Source: Demequina silvatica (lineage in GTDB: Bacteria > Actinomycetota > Actinomycetes > Actinomycetales > Demequinaceae). Taken from it: DNA of 64,000 bases. The notes under the pieces were generated by a model. That model saw nothing but the letters and a program-made list of their open reading frames with translations, made no database searches and was not told where the DNA came from. Below are positions 3,576-11,285 of this stretch, one piece after another. Every line of letters starts with the position of its first letter. Positions within the stretch are counted from its first letter, which is position 1. The stretch spans positions 1 to 64,000 of the forward strand of contig NZ_BBMA01000004.1 in assembly GCF_000971215.1 (NCBI RefSeq), given 5' to 3'. Position numbers and translations under genes: made by a program.

Positions 3576-4421
3576 CTACGTCAACGCGGACGCGAGGGCC
3601 TCGAGCGTCTCGGTGGTGCCCGCGTCGACTTTGACGTCCGCGCGCCGGTCGCCCTTGGTGGCGCCCCGGTTGATGATCACGATCGGAGCTCCGCGGCGAC
3701 GCGCGCGCTCCACCAATCGCAACCCCGAGTTCACGGCAAGCGACGATCCGGCGACGAGCAGCGCCTCGGCTTCGTCGACGATGCGTTCCGCCGCCCGGGT
3801 CCGTTCGGCGGGCACCAGCTCCCCGAAGAAGACGACATCGGGCTTGAGGATCCCGCCGCAGGCCGTGCAATCCGGAACCTCGACGTGCTCCCAGGACTCC
3901 GGCAGCACGTCGCCGTCGGGCCCGAGCTGTACTCCGTCGGGAAGCGCGAGGGCGGGGTTGTCGCGTTCGAGGCGCCCTGCGACCTCCTCGCGAGCGAACC
4001 GTGTGCCGCAGGCGAGGCACGTCGCGCCTCTCATGTTGCCGTGCAGCTCGACCACCTCGCGCGAACCGGCTCGCAGGTGGAGCCCGTCGACGTTCTGCGT
4101 CACGAGGCCCGTGATGACACCGGCAGCTTCGAGCCCGGCGAGCGCGCGGTGTCCCGCGTTCGGCCGCGTGGCGGAGAAGGCCTTCCACCCGAGGTGCGAA
4201 CCCACCCAGTAGCGCCGCCGCTTCGCCTCGTCGCCCACGAAGTCCTGGAATGTCATGGGCGTGCGTCGAGGAGCGCCGTCGCCGCGATAGTCGGGGATGC
4301 CGGAATCCGTCGACAGGCCTGCGCCGGTAAGCGCGGCGATGGTCCGGCCCGCGAGCACCTCGACAGCACGCGACACCTCGGGTGCCGCGAGCGCGGGAAT
4401 ACCAGGCTCAACCGTCGTCAC
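3576..4421 (-). CDS. Sir2-family NAD-dependent protein deacylase
   Basis: A 281-residue sirtuin that removes acyl groups from lysines using NAD+, giving nicotinamide and O-acyl-ADP-ribose. Visible are the NAD-binding GAGLSTDSGIPDYRG (from about residue 33), TQNVDGLH (108-115), the catalytic histidine H127 in VELHGN, and two CxxC pairs (CLAC near 134, CTAC further on) that hold the structural zinc. The start is the GTG at 4421, with AGGAGGAG about 6 nt before it; an ATG at 4448 is possible but would overlap this site. It is a stand-alone gene between the methyltransferase and the aldo/keto reductase, all on the minus strand. Confidence 0.93.
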   Translation of the reverse strand: MTTVEPGIPALAAPEVSRAVEVLAGRTIAALTGAGLSTDSGIPDYRGDGAPRRTPMTFQDFVGDEAKRRRYWVGSHLGWKAFSATRPNAGHRALAGLEAAGVITGLVTQNVDGLHLRAGSREVVELHGNMRGATCLACGTRFAREEVAGRLERDNPALALPDGVQLGPDGDVLPESWEHVEVPDCTACGGILKPDVVFFGELVPAERTRAAERIVDEAEALLVAGSSLAVNSGLRLVERARRRGAPIVIINRGATKGDRRADVKVDAGTTETLEALASALT

Positions 4422-7100: not shown

Positions 7101-7133
7101 GTGTGGACCATCCGTGGGGGCGCTGTGGGTGGG
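7101..7133 (+). promoter_or_regulatory. Three 11-bp-phased direct repeats (nnGTGG) before the hemerythrin gene
   Basis: Units start at 7101 (GTGTGG), 7112 (CCGTGG) and 7123 (CTGTGG), exactly one helical turn apart, 61-93 nt before the ATG. The same three-unit array, in the same order, lies at 10266-10298. Such phased arrays are typical sites for activators that bind one face of DNA, such as SARP proteins. Confidence 0.55.
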
Positions 7134-7193
7134 GTCGCGCGAGGCCGCGCGTGAGCCTGGTGGCACCAGCAACCCACGCAAGGAGAAGCCGCC

Positions 7194-7859
7194 ATGACCG
7201 CGACCGTCCCCCACGACCAGCGCCCCGACATCCAGGAGATGGTGGTGATCCACCGCGCCTTCCGGCGCGAGTTCGGCATCGTCCCCACCTACATCCGCGC
7301 CACCGCCGACGGCGACACCGCCCGCGCCACCGTCGTCGCCCGGCACCTGCGCCTCTGCATGGCCGGGCTCGAGATGCACCACACGGGCGAGGACATCGTG
7401 CTGTGGCCCCTGCTGCTCGAGCGTGCCGCACCGTCGACGGGGCTCGTCGAGACCATGCAGGCGCAGCACCACCGGGTGGATGCGCACATCGAGGCGGTCG
7501 AGCCCGCGCTCGCCGCGTGGCAGGAGCACCCCACTGCAGCCGCCGGCGATCAGCTCGCCACGCTCGTCGAGGGATTCAGTGCCGCGCTGTTCGAGCACCT
7601 CGACCTGGAGGAGCGGGAGATCCTTCCGCTCGCCTACCGCCACGTCACCGATGCGGAGTGGCGCCAGATGGGTCAGCACGGCACCGAGGTGATGTCGACG
7701 AGCGAGCTGCCGATCATGTTCGGCCTGGTTCTGGAGGATGCCGAGCCTGACGAGCGCGCCCGCATGCTCGCCACCCTGCCCGTGCCCGTTCGGCTGGTGC
7801 TGCGGACCGTCGGCGCGTGGCAGTTCAGCCGGTACGTGCGTCGCCTGCGTGGGAGGTGA
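7194..7859 (+). CDS. Hemerythrin-like HHE domain protein
   Basis: A 221-residue cytoplasmic four-helix protein of the HHE cation-binding family. Such proteins bind a diiron centre that senses or carries O2 or NO. Candidate iron ligands are the histidines in VVIHRAFRREF, MHHTGEDIVLW, QHHRVDAHIE and FEHLDLEEREILP, together with their glutamates. AAGGAG lies upstream of the ATG. The gene end overlaps the convergent XRE-STAND regulator by 35 bp. It shares an upstream repeat array with the membrane-protein gene on the far side of that regulator, so the two may be co-regulated. Confidence 0.88.
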   Translation: MTATVPHDQRPDIQEMVVIHRAFRREFGIVPTYIRATADGDTARATVVARHLRLCMAGLEMHHTGEDIVLWPLLLERAAPSTGLVETMQAQHHRVDAHIEAVEPALAAWQEHPTAAAGDQLATLVEGFSAALFEHLDLEEREILPLAYRHVTDAEWRQMGQHGTEVMSTSELPIMFGLVLEDAEPDERARMLATLPVPVRLVLRTVGAWQFSRYVRRLRGR

Positions 7860-10218
7860 CGGCCGCGCATCGTGCCGCGATCGCCGCCGCGTCCGCGGCG
7901 CGTCCCCCGGCCCACTCCCGGGCGAAGGTGGCGGGGTCGAGTGCGGCCCGGGTCCGTTCGAGCCCGCGGTCGGCGAGCGTGCGCGCGGCGGGGAACGTCG
8001 GATCCACGGCATCGGCGACCGAGACCGCCGCGCCCGCGCCGAACAGCCAGGCGGCGGACCCGGGATCGCCGGCGCGCGCCGCGACAGCGGCGAGCGCGGG
8101 GAGTGCGTAGCCGAGAGTCCAGCTCAACCGACCGGCCAAGGAGACGGCCACGGACTCGCCGAGGAGGGCGGCCGTGGTGCCGTCGTCACCGGTCATCTCG
8201 GTGAGCGTCGCCTGCACGTTGAGGGCGGTCGCGAGGGTGAACGGGTTGCCGAGGTCCCGTGCGCGCGCGACCGCGTCCGTCGCTGCCGCCCCCGCGGACG
8301 CGAGATCCCCCGACGCGAGCGCCAGTTGCGCCCGGGCGATCCGACCATGCGCCTGGACCCACACGTTCCCGGCCTCCCGCGCGCGGTCCTCAGCATCGTC
8401 CAACGCGGTCGCGGCCTCGTCGAGACGCCCCGCGAACACGGCCGCCTGAGCGAGCAGTGTGAGGGTCGCGCACGTGATCGCCGGATCCGAGACGCGACGG
8501 CACGCGGCGGCGGCACGGTCGGACTCCCGCGCCATCGCGGCGCGTTCGCCGGTGAGCAGCAGCAATCCCAAACGCGCAGTGAGGACCCGGCAGCGCGTGG
8601 CGTCCGGCACGCCCCCGCCGATCCGATCGAGCCACTCGAGGCCCTCCCGGGCATGACCCCGGAGCGCCAGGTACGGCCACAGGCGCGCCGCCAGCTCGCC
8701 GGCCTCGTTGTCGCGATCGACCTCGATCAGCCGCAGGAATGCGGCGCGCAGGTTGCCGTGGTCCGCGTCGAGCCGATCGAGCGTCGCGACGAGGTCGGCG
8801 CCCTCGAGGCCGCTCGCGGCGGTGACCCCGAGCGTGAGGTAATAGGCGCAGTGCTCCTCCGCGGCGACGTGCGCGCTCCCCGACGCGTGCAGCCGCGCCA
8901 TCCCGTACTGGCGTACCGGCTCGAGCATCCGGTAGCGGGGCTCACCGTCGGGCGCGTCCACCCGCATCGCCAGCGATTGCTCGACGAGGGCGCCGAGGGC
9001 CTGCCACGTCGCCGTGCCCCACGGGCCGCCGTCCGCGGGCGTCGCGACTGCCTGCATCGCGTCGAGGGAGAAGCCGCCGATGAAGACCGAGAGCCGCTCG
9101 AACAGCGCGATCTCCTCGGGCTCGAGCAGGTCCATGCTCCACTCGAGCACGCGCTCCATCGTCCGGTGCCGGGCGGGGAGATCCTGAGGCGCGCCGCCGA
9201 GCTCGACCCGCCCGAGCATGCCGGACAGGGCCGCCGGGGAGAGCAGCCGCAATCCCGCCGCCGCGAGCTCGAGCGCGAGCGGGATCCCGTCGAGCCGTCG
9301 GGCGATGGCGGCGAGCGCGGCAGCGTCCTCAATGCTGCGGGGCAGGCCGCGGCCCGCGGCGCCCGCACGGTCCACGAGCAGCCGCACGGCGGGCGCGGAC
9401 GCGACCGCGTCGACGGACGCCGTGGCGGGGAGGGCCAGTGGCGGCACCGCGTACTCGAACTCGACGCGGATCCTCAGGGCCGCGCGGCTGGTCGCGACCA
9501 CCACCAGGCCACGGCACCGTGCCACGAGGTCCGCGAGCACGGCCGCGATGCCAGCGACCTGCTCGAGGTTGTCCAGGACCAGCAGCACCGGCGCCCCGCT
9601 GAGGTGGCGCGCCAGCTCGCCCAGCGGGTCCTCGTCCACCAGATCTGGCCGGCCCAGCGCCGCCGCGATGCGGGGGAGCGCGTGCACGGCCTGGCGGACG
9701 GGCGCGAGATCGACGGCGACCGCGCCACCGGGGAACCGGGGCGTCTCGCTCGCGAGGACGTCGAGCGCGAGCCGAGTCTTGCCGATCCCTCCCGGGCCGG
9801 TGAGGGTGACGAGCCGGTGGTGGCCGTCGGACACGAGCGCGCGCAGCTCCGCACTCTCGGACTCACGCCCGATCAGGTCACCGGCGGCCACGAGCGGCGT
9901 GGTGGCGACGGCGGCGGGAGCGGTGGACGGGTCGGTGCTCTCTCCAGCGGAGTGGGGCGTTGGCTCGGGCGCCCCCGCAGCCCTCGCCGGGACGGCGGCG
10001 ACGAGCGCGGCCCGCTCGTCCGCGGTCAGCCCGAGGCCCTCCGCGAGGGCACGCACAGTGTGCGGGTACGGGCGACGGCGTTCGCCCCGCTCGAGCGCGC
10101 CGATCGCCTTCGCGGTGATGCCGGAGCGTTCGGCCAGCTCCTCCTGGGTGAGGGCGCGCGACTCCCGCAGGCGCCGCAGGACGGCGCCGACCCCCTCGGG
10201 CGTGTTTTCGTGCCCCAC
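7825..10218 (-). CDS. XRE-STAND transcriptional regulator (HTH, NB-ARC ATPase, TPR-like)
   Basis: A 797-residue regulator. The N-terminal HTH_XRE (about 8-65, LRESRALTQEELAERSGITAKAIGALERGERRRPYPHTV) is followed by an NB-ARC type ATPase with Walker A GPGGIGKTRL and Walker B VLLVLDNLEQ, then a winged-helix region and a long alpha-helical C-terminus that is probably TPR-like. Proteins of this layout are signal-dependent activators that oligomerise on ATP binding. The start is the GTG at 10218. It is divergent from the membrane-protein operon and convergent with the hemerythrin gene, and matching 11-bp-phased repeats lie upstream of both, which makes it their likely regulator (inference). Confidence 0.87.
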   Translation of the reverse strand: MGHENTPEGVGAVLRRLRESRALTQEELAERSGITAKAIGALERGERRRPYPHTVRALAEGLGLTADERAALVAAVPARAAGAPEPTPHSAGESTDPSTAPAAVATTPLVAAGDLIGRESESAELRALVSDGHHRLVTLTGPGGIGKTRLALDVLASETPRFPGGAVAVDLAPVRQAVHALPRIAAALGRPDLVDEDPLGELARHLSGAPVLLVLDNLEQVAGIAAVLADLVARCRGLVVVATSRAALRIRVEFEYAVPPLALPATASVDAVASAPAVRLLVDRAGAAGRGLPRSIEDAAALAAIARRLDGIPLALELAAAGLRLLSPAALSGMLGRVELGGAPQDLPARHRTMERVLEWSMDLLEPEEIALFERLSVFIGGFSLDAMQAVATPADGGPWGTATWQALGALVEQSLAMRVDAPDGEPRYRMLEPVRQYGMARLHASGSAHVAAEEHCAYYLTLGVTAASGLEGADLVATLDRLDADHGNLRAAFLRLIEVDRDNEAGELAARLWPYLALRGHAREGLEWLDRIGGGVPDATRCRVLTARLGLLLLTGERAAMARESDRAAAACRRVSDPAITCATLTLLAQAAVFAGRLDEAATALDDAEDRAREAGNVWVQAHGRIARAQLALASGDLASAGAAATDAVARARDLGNPFTLATALNVQATLTEMTGDDGTTAALLGESVAVSLAGRLSWTLGYALPALAAVAARAGDPGSAAWLFGAGAAVSVADAVDPTFPAARTLADRGLERTRAALDPATFAREWAGGRAADAAAIAARCAAVTSHAGDARTG

Positions 10219-10265
10219 GTCGGCACGCTAACAGGGCGGACGGCGGGCCGCGACGGTTCCGACCC

Positions 10266-10298
10266 GTGTGGCGGCGGTGTGGGTCCGCTGTGGGTGTG
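10266..10298 (+). promoter_or_regulatory. Three 11-bp-phased direct repeats (nTGTGG) in the divergent promoter region
   Basis: Units start at 10266 (GTGTGG), 10277 (GTGTGG) and 10288 (CTGTGG). The third unit and its flank, CGCTGTGGGTG, is identical to the one at 7121-7131. The array lies 48 bp from the regulator start and 71-103 bp from the membrane-protein ATG, so it could serve both directions. Confidence 0.55.
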
Positions 10299-10368
10299 AT
10301 GGCCGGCCGCTGACGAGAAGGCTGGGACGCGGGCGGCACGGGGCCGTCCATCGAGAAAGGGAACCACC

Positions 10369-10806
10369 ATGTCCGCCGCCTCCATCCCGTCCACCACGGC
10401 CCGGCAAGCATCCGCCGCCACCCGCACCACGTCCTACGGCCGCCACCTGCGCGGCATCCTGCTGGTCGCGTTCACGCTGTCCGCCGGCCACACCGTCTAC
10501 GCCTGGCTCGCGGGCATCGAGGACCCGACCTTCACGGTGACCACGCCGCTCACCTGGGCCTTCTATGCGGTCGCGTTCGGTGTCGCGTGGCTCGCCGGAC
10601 GCCCGGCTCGCTGGGCTCAGGTGACCGTCCTCGGCTACCTCACGGTGCTGCTCGGGATCTCGATCTTCTACTACCCGACCAACTTCGGTCCCGCGCAGCA
10701 GACCACCTTCGGCTGGTTCGAGAACGACGTCTACGTGGGCCTCCTCCTCACCGCCGCCTACCTCGGGGTGCAGCGGCTGCGCGGCGTCACCCTCCGGGGG
10801 GCCTGA
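10369..10806 (+). CDS. Small four-helix membrane protein, unknown function
   Basis: A 145-residue protein with a polar serine/threonine-rich N-terminus and four predicted membrane helices (about 29-48, 62-80, 84-101 and 119-137). The segment FYYPTNFGPAQQTTFGWFENDVYVG forms a long external or internal loop. I do not recognise the family. It follows the phased repeat array and is 53 bp upstream of the SRPBCC gene, probably in one transcript. Confidence 0.72.
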   Translation: MSAASIPSTTARQASAATRTTSYGRHLRGILLVAFTLSAGHTVYAWLAGIEDPTFTVTTPLTWAFYAVAFGVAWLAGRPARWAQVTVLGYLTVLLGISIFYYPTNFGPAQQTTFGWFENDVYVGLLLTAAYLGVQRLRGVTLRGA

Positions 10807-10859: not shown

Positions 10860-11285
10860 GTGACCCAGAGCGTCGCGATCGACATCGCGGCCCCGCCCGA
10901 CAGGGTGTGGGCGGTGCTGAGCGACGTCGACCATTGGCCGGAGTGGACGCCGACCGTGACGTCGGTGATCCGGTCCGACGACGCCCCGCTCCACGTCGGC
11001 ACCCACGCGAAGGTCGCCCAGCCCAGGCTTGCCGATGCCGACTACGCCGTCACCGAGCTCGATCCCGGCCACTCCTTCACCTGGGTCGCCACGCACCCCG
11101 GCCTCGCCACCACGGCCCGCCACGAGGTCGACCCGCTGCCCGACGGCGGCACGCACGTGACGCTGTCCATCACGCAGAGCGGGCTGCTCGGCCCGCTCAT
11201 GGGCCGCGTCTACCGGGGCCTCACGGACCGGTACCTCCACAACGAGGCGAACGGCCTGAAGGCCAGGTGCGAGGCGGCGGCCTGA
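10860..11285 (+). CDS. SRPBCC-family (START-like) protein
   Basis: A 141-residue polyketide-cyclase-like protein with a helix-grip fold for binding hydrophobic ligands. The opening VAIDIAAPPDRVWAVLSDVDHWPEWTPTVTSV and the later SFTWVATHPGLATTARHEVDP are characteristic. The start is the GTG at 10860; GACAAT 6 nt upstream could be a -10 box and would make the message leaderless, although it may also be read from the preceding gene. The ligand is unknown. Confidence 0.82.
   Translation: MTQSVAIDIAAPPDRVWAVLSDVDHWPEWTPTVTSVIRSDDAPLHVGTHAKVAQPRLADADYAVTELDPGHSFTWVATHPGLATTARHEVDPLPDGGTHVTLSITQSGLLGPLMGRVYRGLTDRYLHNEANGLKARCEAAA

Follow-up and report, generated by a model that had tools for sequence, protein, structure and literature searches.

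Two arrays of 11-bp direct repeats beside an XRE-STAND regulator gene in Demequina silvatica as its putative operators

In a stretch of 64,000 nucleotides from Demequina silvatica (the first 64,000 positions of contig NZ_BBMA01000004.1, henceforth called the window), the gene of a large regulator with an XRE helix-turn-helix (HTH) and a STAND-type NTPase is located between two short arrays of repeats, and the question is which protein reads these arrays and which genes are controlled through them. Actinobacteria commonly encode large STAND regulators, and no operator of an XRE-STAND was found in the literature (open-access subset). The comparisons below make it very probable, at the level of sequence, that the arrays are operators of the regulator located between them, through which it would activate a hemerythrin-like gene and a membrane-protein gene. 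The features discussed are listed by their positions in the window:

7101 to 7133, + strand: array 1, three 11-bp units, putative operator of the hemerythrin-like gene, conserved in orthologs
7153 to 7158, + strand: -10-like hexamer GAGCCT (within AGCCTGG, 7154-7160), at a fixed distance from unit 3, putative promoter element
7194 to 7859, + strand: hemerythrin-like (HHE) protein, 221 aa, Pfam PF01814, putative first target
7825 to 10218, - strand: XRE-STAND regulator, 797 aa, with HTH_31, an AAA_16/NB-ARC-type NTPase and helical repeats
10084 to 10116, - strand: recognition helix TAKAIGALERG of the regulator, assigned by PDB sequence match to dh434 and the 434 repressor and by covariation
10225 to 10230, - strand: TAGCGT, possible -10 of the regulator, 7 nt before its GTG start and conserved in four Demequina
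10266 to 10298, + strand: array 2, three 11-bp units, putative operator of the membrane-protein gene, perhaps also serving the divergent regulator gene, conserved in orthologs
10318 to 10323, + strand: -10-like hexamer AAGGCT (within AGGCTGG, 10319-10325), at a fixed distance from unit 3, putative promoter element
10369 to 10806, + strand: small membrane protein, 145 aa, four predicted helices, conserved with the module, putative second target
10860 to 11285, + strand: SRPBCC protein, PF10604, lineage-specific neighbour and not part of the core

Rarity of the arrays and conservation of the module

The units of array 1 read GTGTGGACCAT, CCGTGGGGGCG and CTGTGGGTGGG (cores TGTGG at 7102, CGTGG at 7113 and TGTGG at 7124) and those of array 2 GTGTGGCGGCG, GTGTGGGTCCG and CTGTGGGTGTG (TGTGG cores at 10267, 10278 and 10289). 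All units read on the + strand. Positions, exact 11-bp step and the CGCTGTGGGTG common to both third units were re-read and agreed with the first-pass annotation, which had described two arrays of three TGTGG or CGTGG units each. Arrays were searched with the pattern TGTGGN6TGTGGN6TGTGG, allowing at most one mismatch. Arrays 1 and 2 were the only matches in the window, with 0.01 expected from shuffles, and the genome scan that had been suggested for such triple units likewise picked out this pair alone in the 2.92 Mb of the Demequina genome, one array on either side of the XRE-STAND gene. The reversed pattern had no match in the same 2.92 Mb, and the pattern itself had none in 15 Mb of order-3 Markov sequence. 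Among 393 other genomes of the class, no match was located near a relative of the regulator (tblastn); the matches found there resemble DnaA-like clusters, simple repeats and sites by sensor-kinase-like genes. In Streptomyces, TGTGG-TGTGG-TGTGA arrays between sensor-kinase-like and glycosyltransferase-like genes (L045, L047, L048 and L058) are probably response-regulator sites.

Orthologs of the regulator were found in three other Demequina, two Dactylosporangium, one more genome of that family, Intrasporangium, and several members of family f35 (taken to be Nocardioidaceae); most STAND matches in Streptomyces are without the XRE part. Within the genus Demequina, only 4 of 44 genomes carry an ortholog, and the other three of these (G008, G019 and G024) contain exactly two arrays each genome-wide, both beside the orthologous regulator. 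Arrays precede the hemerythrin-like and membrane-protein genes in relatives, usually both. In the eight close orthologs of the module (four Demequina, two Dactylosporangium, one further family member, and Intrasporangium), an array is present at both genes, and all 16 promoters keep the 11-bp phase and depart from three TGTGG cores by no more than one mismatch. Conservation upstream of orthologous genes, on which the first-pass annotation had made its proposal depend, was thus borne out. Unit number varies: in relatives at 46-48% identity (L082 and L083), the hemerythrin gene is preceded by 4 and 5 units in succession at 11-bp steps. The trio of hemerythrin, regulator and membrane protein is constant, and the genes around it in Demequina are not those of the other genera. 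The hemerythrin-like/membrane-protein pair represents a conserved module across different gene neighbourhoods.

The regulator gene and the hemerythrin-like gene overlap tail-to-tail by 35 bp, and the regulator gene is divergent from the membrane-protein gene. The hemerythrin-like protein suggests a putative oxygen, iron or NO connection. For the membrane protein, no family match was obtained in Pfam, NCBIfam or PADLOC, and its structure model is of low confidence. An inverted repeat of the GGACGGC/GCCGTCC type at 10335-10352, in the 5' leader of the membrane-protein gene, is present in most of the aligned orthologs. The SRPBCC gene, which the first-pass annotation had counted in the regulon, was rejected as a core member: it is found in the module in 3 of 4 Demequina only, lacks an array of its own, and was not detected beside the module outside Demequina. 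The remainder of that proposal, binding of the arrays and control of the hemerythrin-like and membrane-protein genes, is strongly favoured by co-occurrence, conservation and HTH covariation, i.e., by comparative evidence.

Regulator architecture and promoter geometry

The regulator comprises an N-terminal HTH_31/XRE domain (HTH_31, E 1.6e-13, Pfam), an NTPase with an AAA_16 match above the cut-off and the Walker A TGPGGIGKTRLA (NB-ARC was matched in relatives), and a C-terminal helical repeat that is confident in the structure model, with a TPR_MalT match below the cut-off. Among PDB sequences, AfsR matched the NTPase-repeat part best (E 1.6e-16), and the best fold match was 6mfv, a STAND protein with tetratricopeptide repeats; MalT domain III was a weak fold match. 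Pfam searches of the window protein gave neither a Trans_reg_C or BTAD domain nor a GerE domain, i.e., no C-terminal LuxR-type HTH. Judged by its sequence, the transcript of the regulator is probably leaderless, with TAGCGT as its possible -10.

Promoters were compared by aligning 25 arrays on the third unit. This yielded an extended unit TGTGGGTGGG, followed 25-26 nt on by the -10-like AGGCTGG in 24 of 25 cases. The conserved A and T of AGGCTGG coincide with the two key bases of TANNNT, and about 24 nt separate the core of unit 3 from the -10-like hexamer. If AGGCTGG is read as the -10, the unit cores would be located at about -63, -52 and -41, directly upstream of a poor -35, and transcription would be predicted to start near 7165 and 10330 in the window. 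For such promoters the following sequence of events is the most likely. The NTPase module would be switched on by a signal, probably sensed by the C-terminal helical repeats, and the switched-on regulator would oligomerise; three XRE HTH domains would then line up head-to-tail along one face of the DNA, one per turn over three consecutive turns, just upstream of the -35. From this position RNA polymerase would be recruited to both promoters, in which the -35 is poor and the -10-like element weak and strictly spaced, and the hemerythrin-like and membrane-protein genes would thereby be turned on.

The regulator might instead bind the arrays as a repressor or autoregulator, which is unlikely. XRE proteins are often repressors, and array 2 is also upstream of the regulator's own start codon, at a distance of 48-80 bp, so that the regulator may additionally autoregulate; however, the -10-like element follows the arrays at a constant distance and no good -35 is present, which is the layout of an activated promoter, and MalT-type STAND regulators are activators. 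AfsR is likewise a STAND activator (PMC10936776).

It is less likely still that the arrays belong to another reader of 11-bp direct repeats, a SARP or an OmpR/PhoB-type response regulator, with the XRE-STAND merely nearby. The fixed geometry would also fit another such factor, SARPs do bind 11-bp direct repeats (PMC10936776), and the Streptomyces chance matches mentioned above adjoin sensor-kinase-like and glycosyltransferase-like genes. Against this, the arrays track the regulator between genera and are found in Demequina only beside it, the unit letters track the XRE helix (see below), and the spacing to the -10 is unlike that of SARPs; moreover, Demequina soli (G024) has both arrays and merely a partial BTAD-like match of 28.8 bits.

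It is highly improbable that the arrays are DNA- or RNA-structure elements, replication sites (G-quadruplex, DnaA boxes) or a functionless repeat: the units are rich in G, the complement of the DnaA box contains TGTGG, and several chance matches elsewhere resemble DnaA-box clusters, but unit 3 is TGTGGGTGG and not TGTGGATAA, just 1 of 6 units (TGTGGACCA) resembles the complement of TTATCCACA-like 9-mers, the 11-bp phase is strict with a fixed -10 distance, and the TGTCC versions of the units described below cannot form a G-quadruplex.

Unit letters and the recognition helix

The letters of the units change with the recognition helix. Lys37 of the regulator (codon 10108-10110) is aligned to Gln29 of the 434 repressor. 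The flanks of more than 60 XRE-STAND relatives were scanned for TGTxy triples at 11 bp, with Markov shuffles as the control because reversed arrays also score, which makes a reversed-sequence control misleading at single loci. With Lys at the Gln29-equivalent position, a TGTGG array score of at least 14 of 15 (p ≤ 0.005) was obtained in 15 of 18 regulators; the remaining three are a contig fragment (L089), a case with a degenerate array by eye (L081) and one with none (L211). With His, Asn or Thr, the units are TGTRC/YGTGC (TGTGC, TGTAC, CGTGC), and these arrays, referred to as the H class, are individually weak (in most cases with two good units; p about 0.2), persuading only via conservation among relatives. 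With Asp, the units are TGTCC, or TGTCA in a group of family f28; the TGTCA sites (p 0.01-0.035) are probably units of the Asp class, but may instead be bound by a response regulator of another kind. In the scanned flanks of the XRE-STANDs L211, L212, L213, L243 and L249, no array was found.

On the tree, the clade that combines Asp with TGTCC is nested next to members with Lys and TGTGG (98/97 support), and the Asp/TGTCA clade is distant. An array precedes homologous SnoaL/SRPBCC-like genes both in L251 (Lys, TGTGG) and in L139 and L143 (Asp, TGTCC); hence, a change in the helix was accompanied by one in the operator at promoters of the same kind. The covariation of helix and operator is partly confounded with phylogeny, as the labels cluster on the tree and independent switches are few. 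The array pattern is more general than the first-pass annotation supposed.

Two further repeat arrangements were noted beside XRE-STAND genes. Upstream of the start of one such regulator (L138), near 3795, TGTGCCGGTAGC is repeated at a 12-bp period. Just past the 3' end of Asp-helix regulators (L146, L149, L151-L159 and L250), TGTCA-N6-TGTCA-N6-TGTRG is found with no obvious large target gene, and a tiny ORF or RNA may follow.

Comparison with known systems

The 434 repressor is a dimer on a palindromic site. It shares with the present regulator the XRE/Cro-cI HTH and a matching recognition helix, and differs in that the repeats here are head-to-tail. MalT is a STAND activator with arrays of direct-repeat sites, and MalT/LAL regulators resemble the present one in combining an NTPase with a helical repeat and in using such arrays; they carry a C-terminal LuxR-type HTH, whereas here the HTH is of the XRE type and N-terminal, and the array period is strictly one turn.

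The closest parallel is with SARPs and AfsR (PMC10936776), which share 11-bp direct repeats, an activator geometry near the -35 and, in AfsR, the NOD+TPR module. Direct repeats of 11 or 22 bp characterise SARP sites, and the arrays are of the 11-bp kind. The first-pass annotation had likened them to SARP-type sites, of which the 11-bp step held up and the remainder did not. The present regulator reads DNA by an XRE HTH, without an OmpR-type winged helix (Trans_reg_C) or BTAD, and the unit sequence is different. In SARP promoters 8 bp separate the 3' repeat from the -10, and -29.5 is the centre of the AfsR box (PMC10936776); with about 24 nt to the -10-like hexamer and, if that hexamer is the -10, cores at about -63, -52 and -41 here, the step is shared and the position is not. 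The arrays represent a putative new kind of operator, for a regulator architecture that is already known, and not a SARP site.

Both architectures are joined in L113 (613-3873, Dactylosporangium) and L103 (1411-5238, same family), which are fusions of Trans_reg_C, BTAD, HTH_31 and NB-ARC: the XRE-NTPase part is homologous to the present regulator, and Trans_reg_C and BTAD are added at the N-terminus. These fusions adjoin the same hemerythrin gene. Their YGTGYGG units, for the most part spaced by 11 bp, are similar to the units of L095 and L084, which have the XRE part only; the unit therefore follows the XRE part and not the presence of a SARP part. On balance, the comparisons favour a class of actinobacterial STAND activators whose XRE HTHs read 11-bp head-to-tail arrays, one HTH per turn, with a recognition code at the Gln29-equivalent position (Lys, TGTGG; His, Asn or Thr, TGTRC; Asp, TGTCC or TGTCA). 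If so, target genes of XRE-STANDs would become predictable and the residue-to-base code testable. Such a class would parallel the SARP solution independently, with the natural SARP-XRE-STAND fusions as a bridge between the two, and would offer a natural comparison of how a STAND oligomer is matched to a DNA array, with XRE, SARP or both placed on related NTPase modules.
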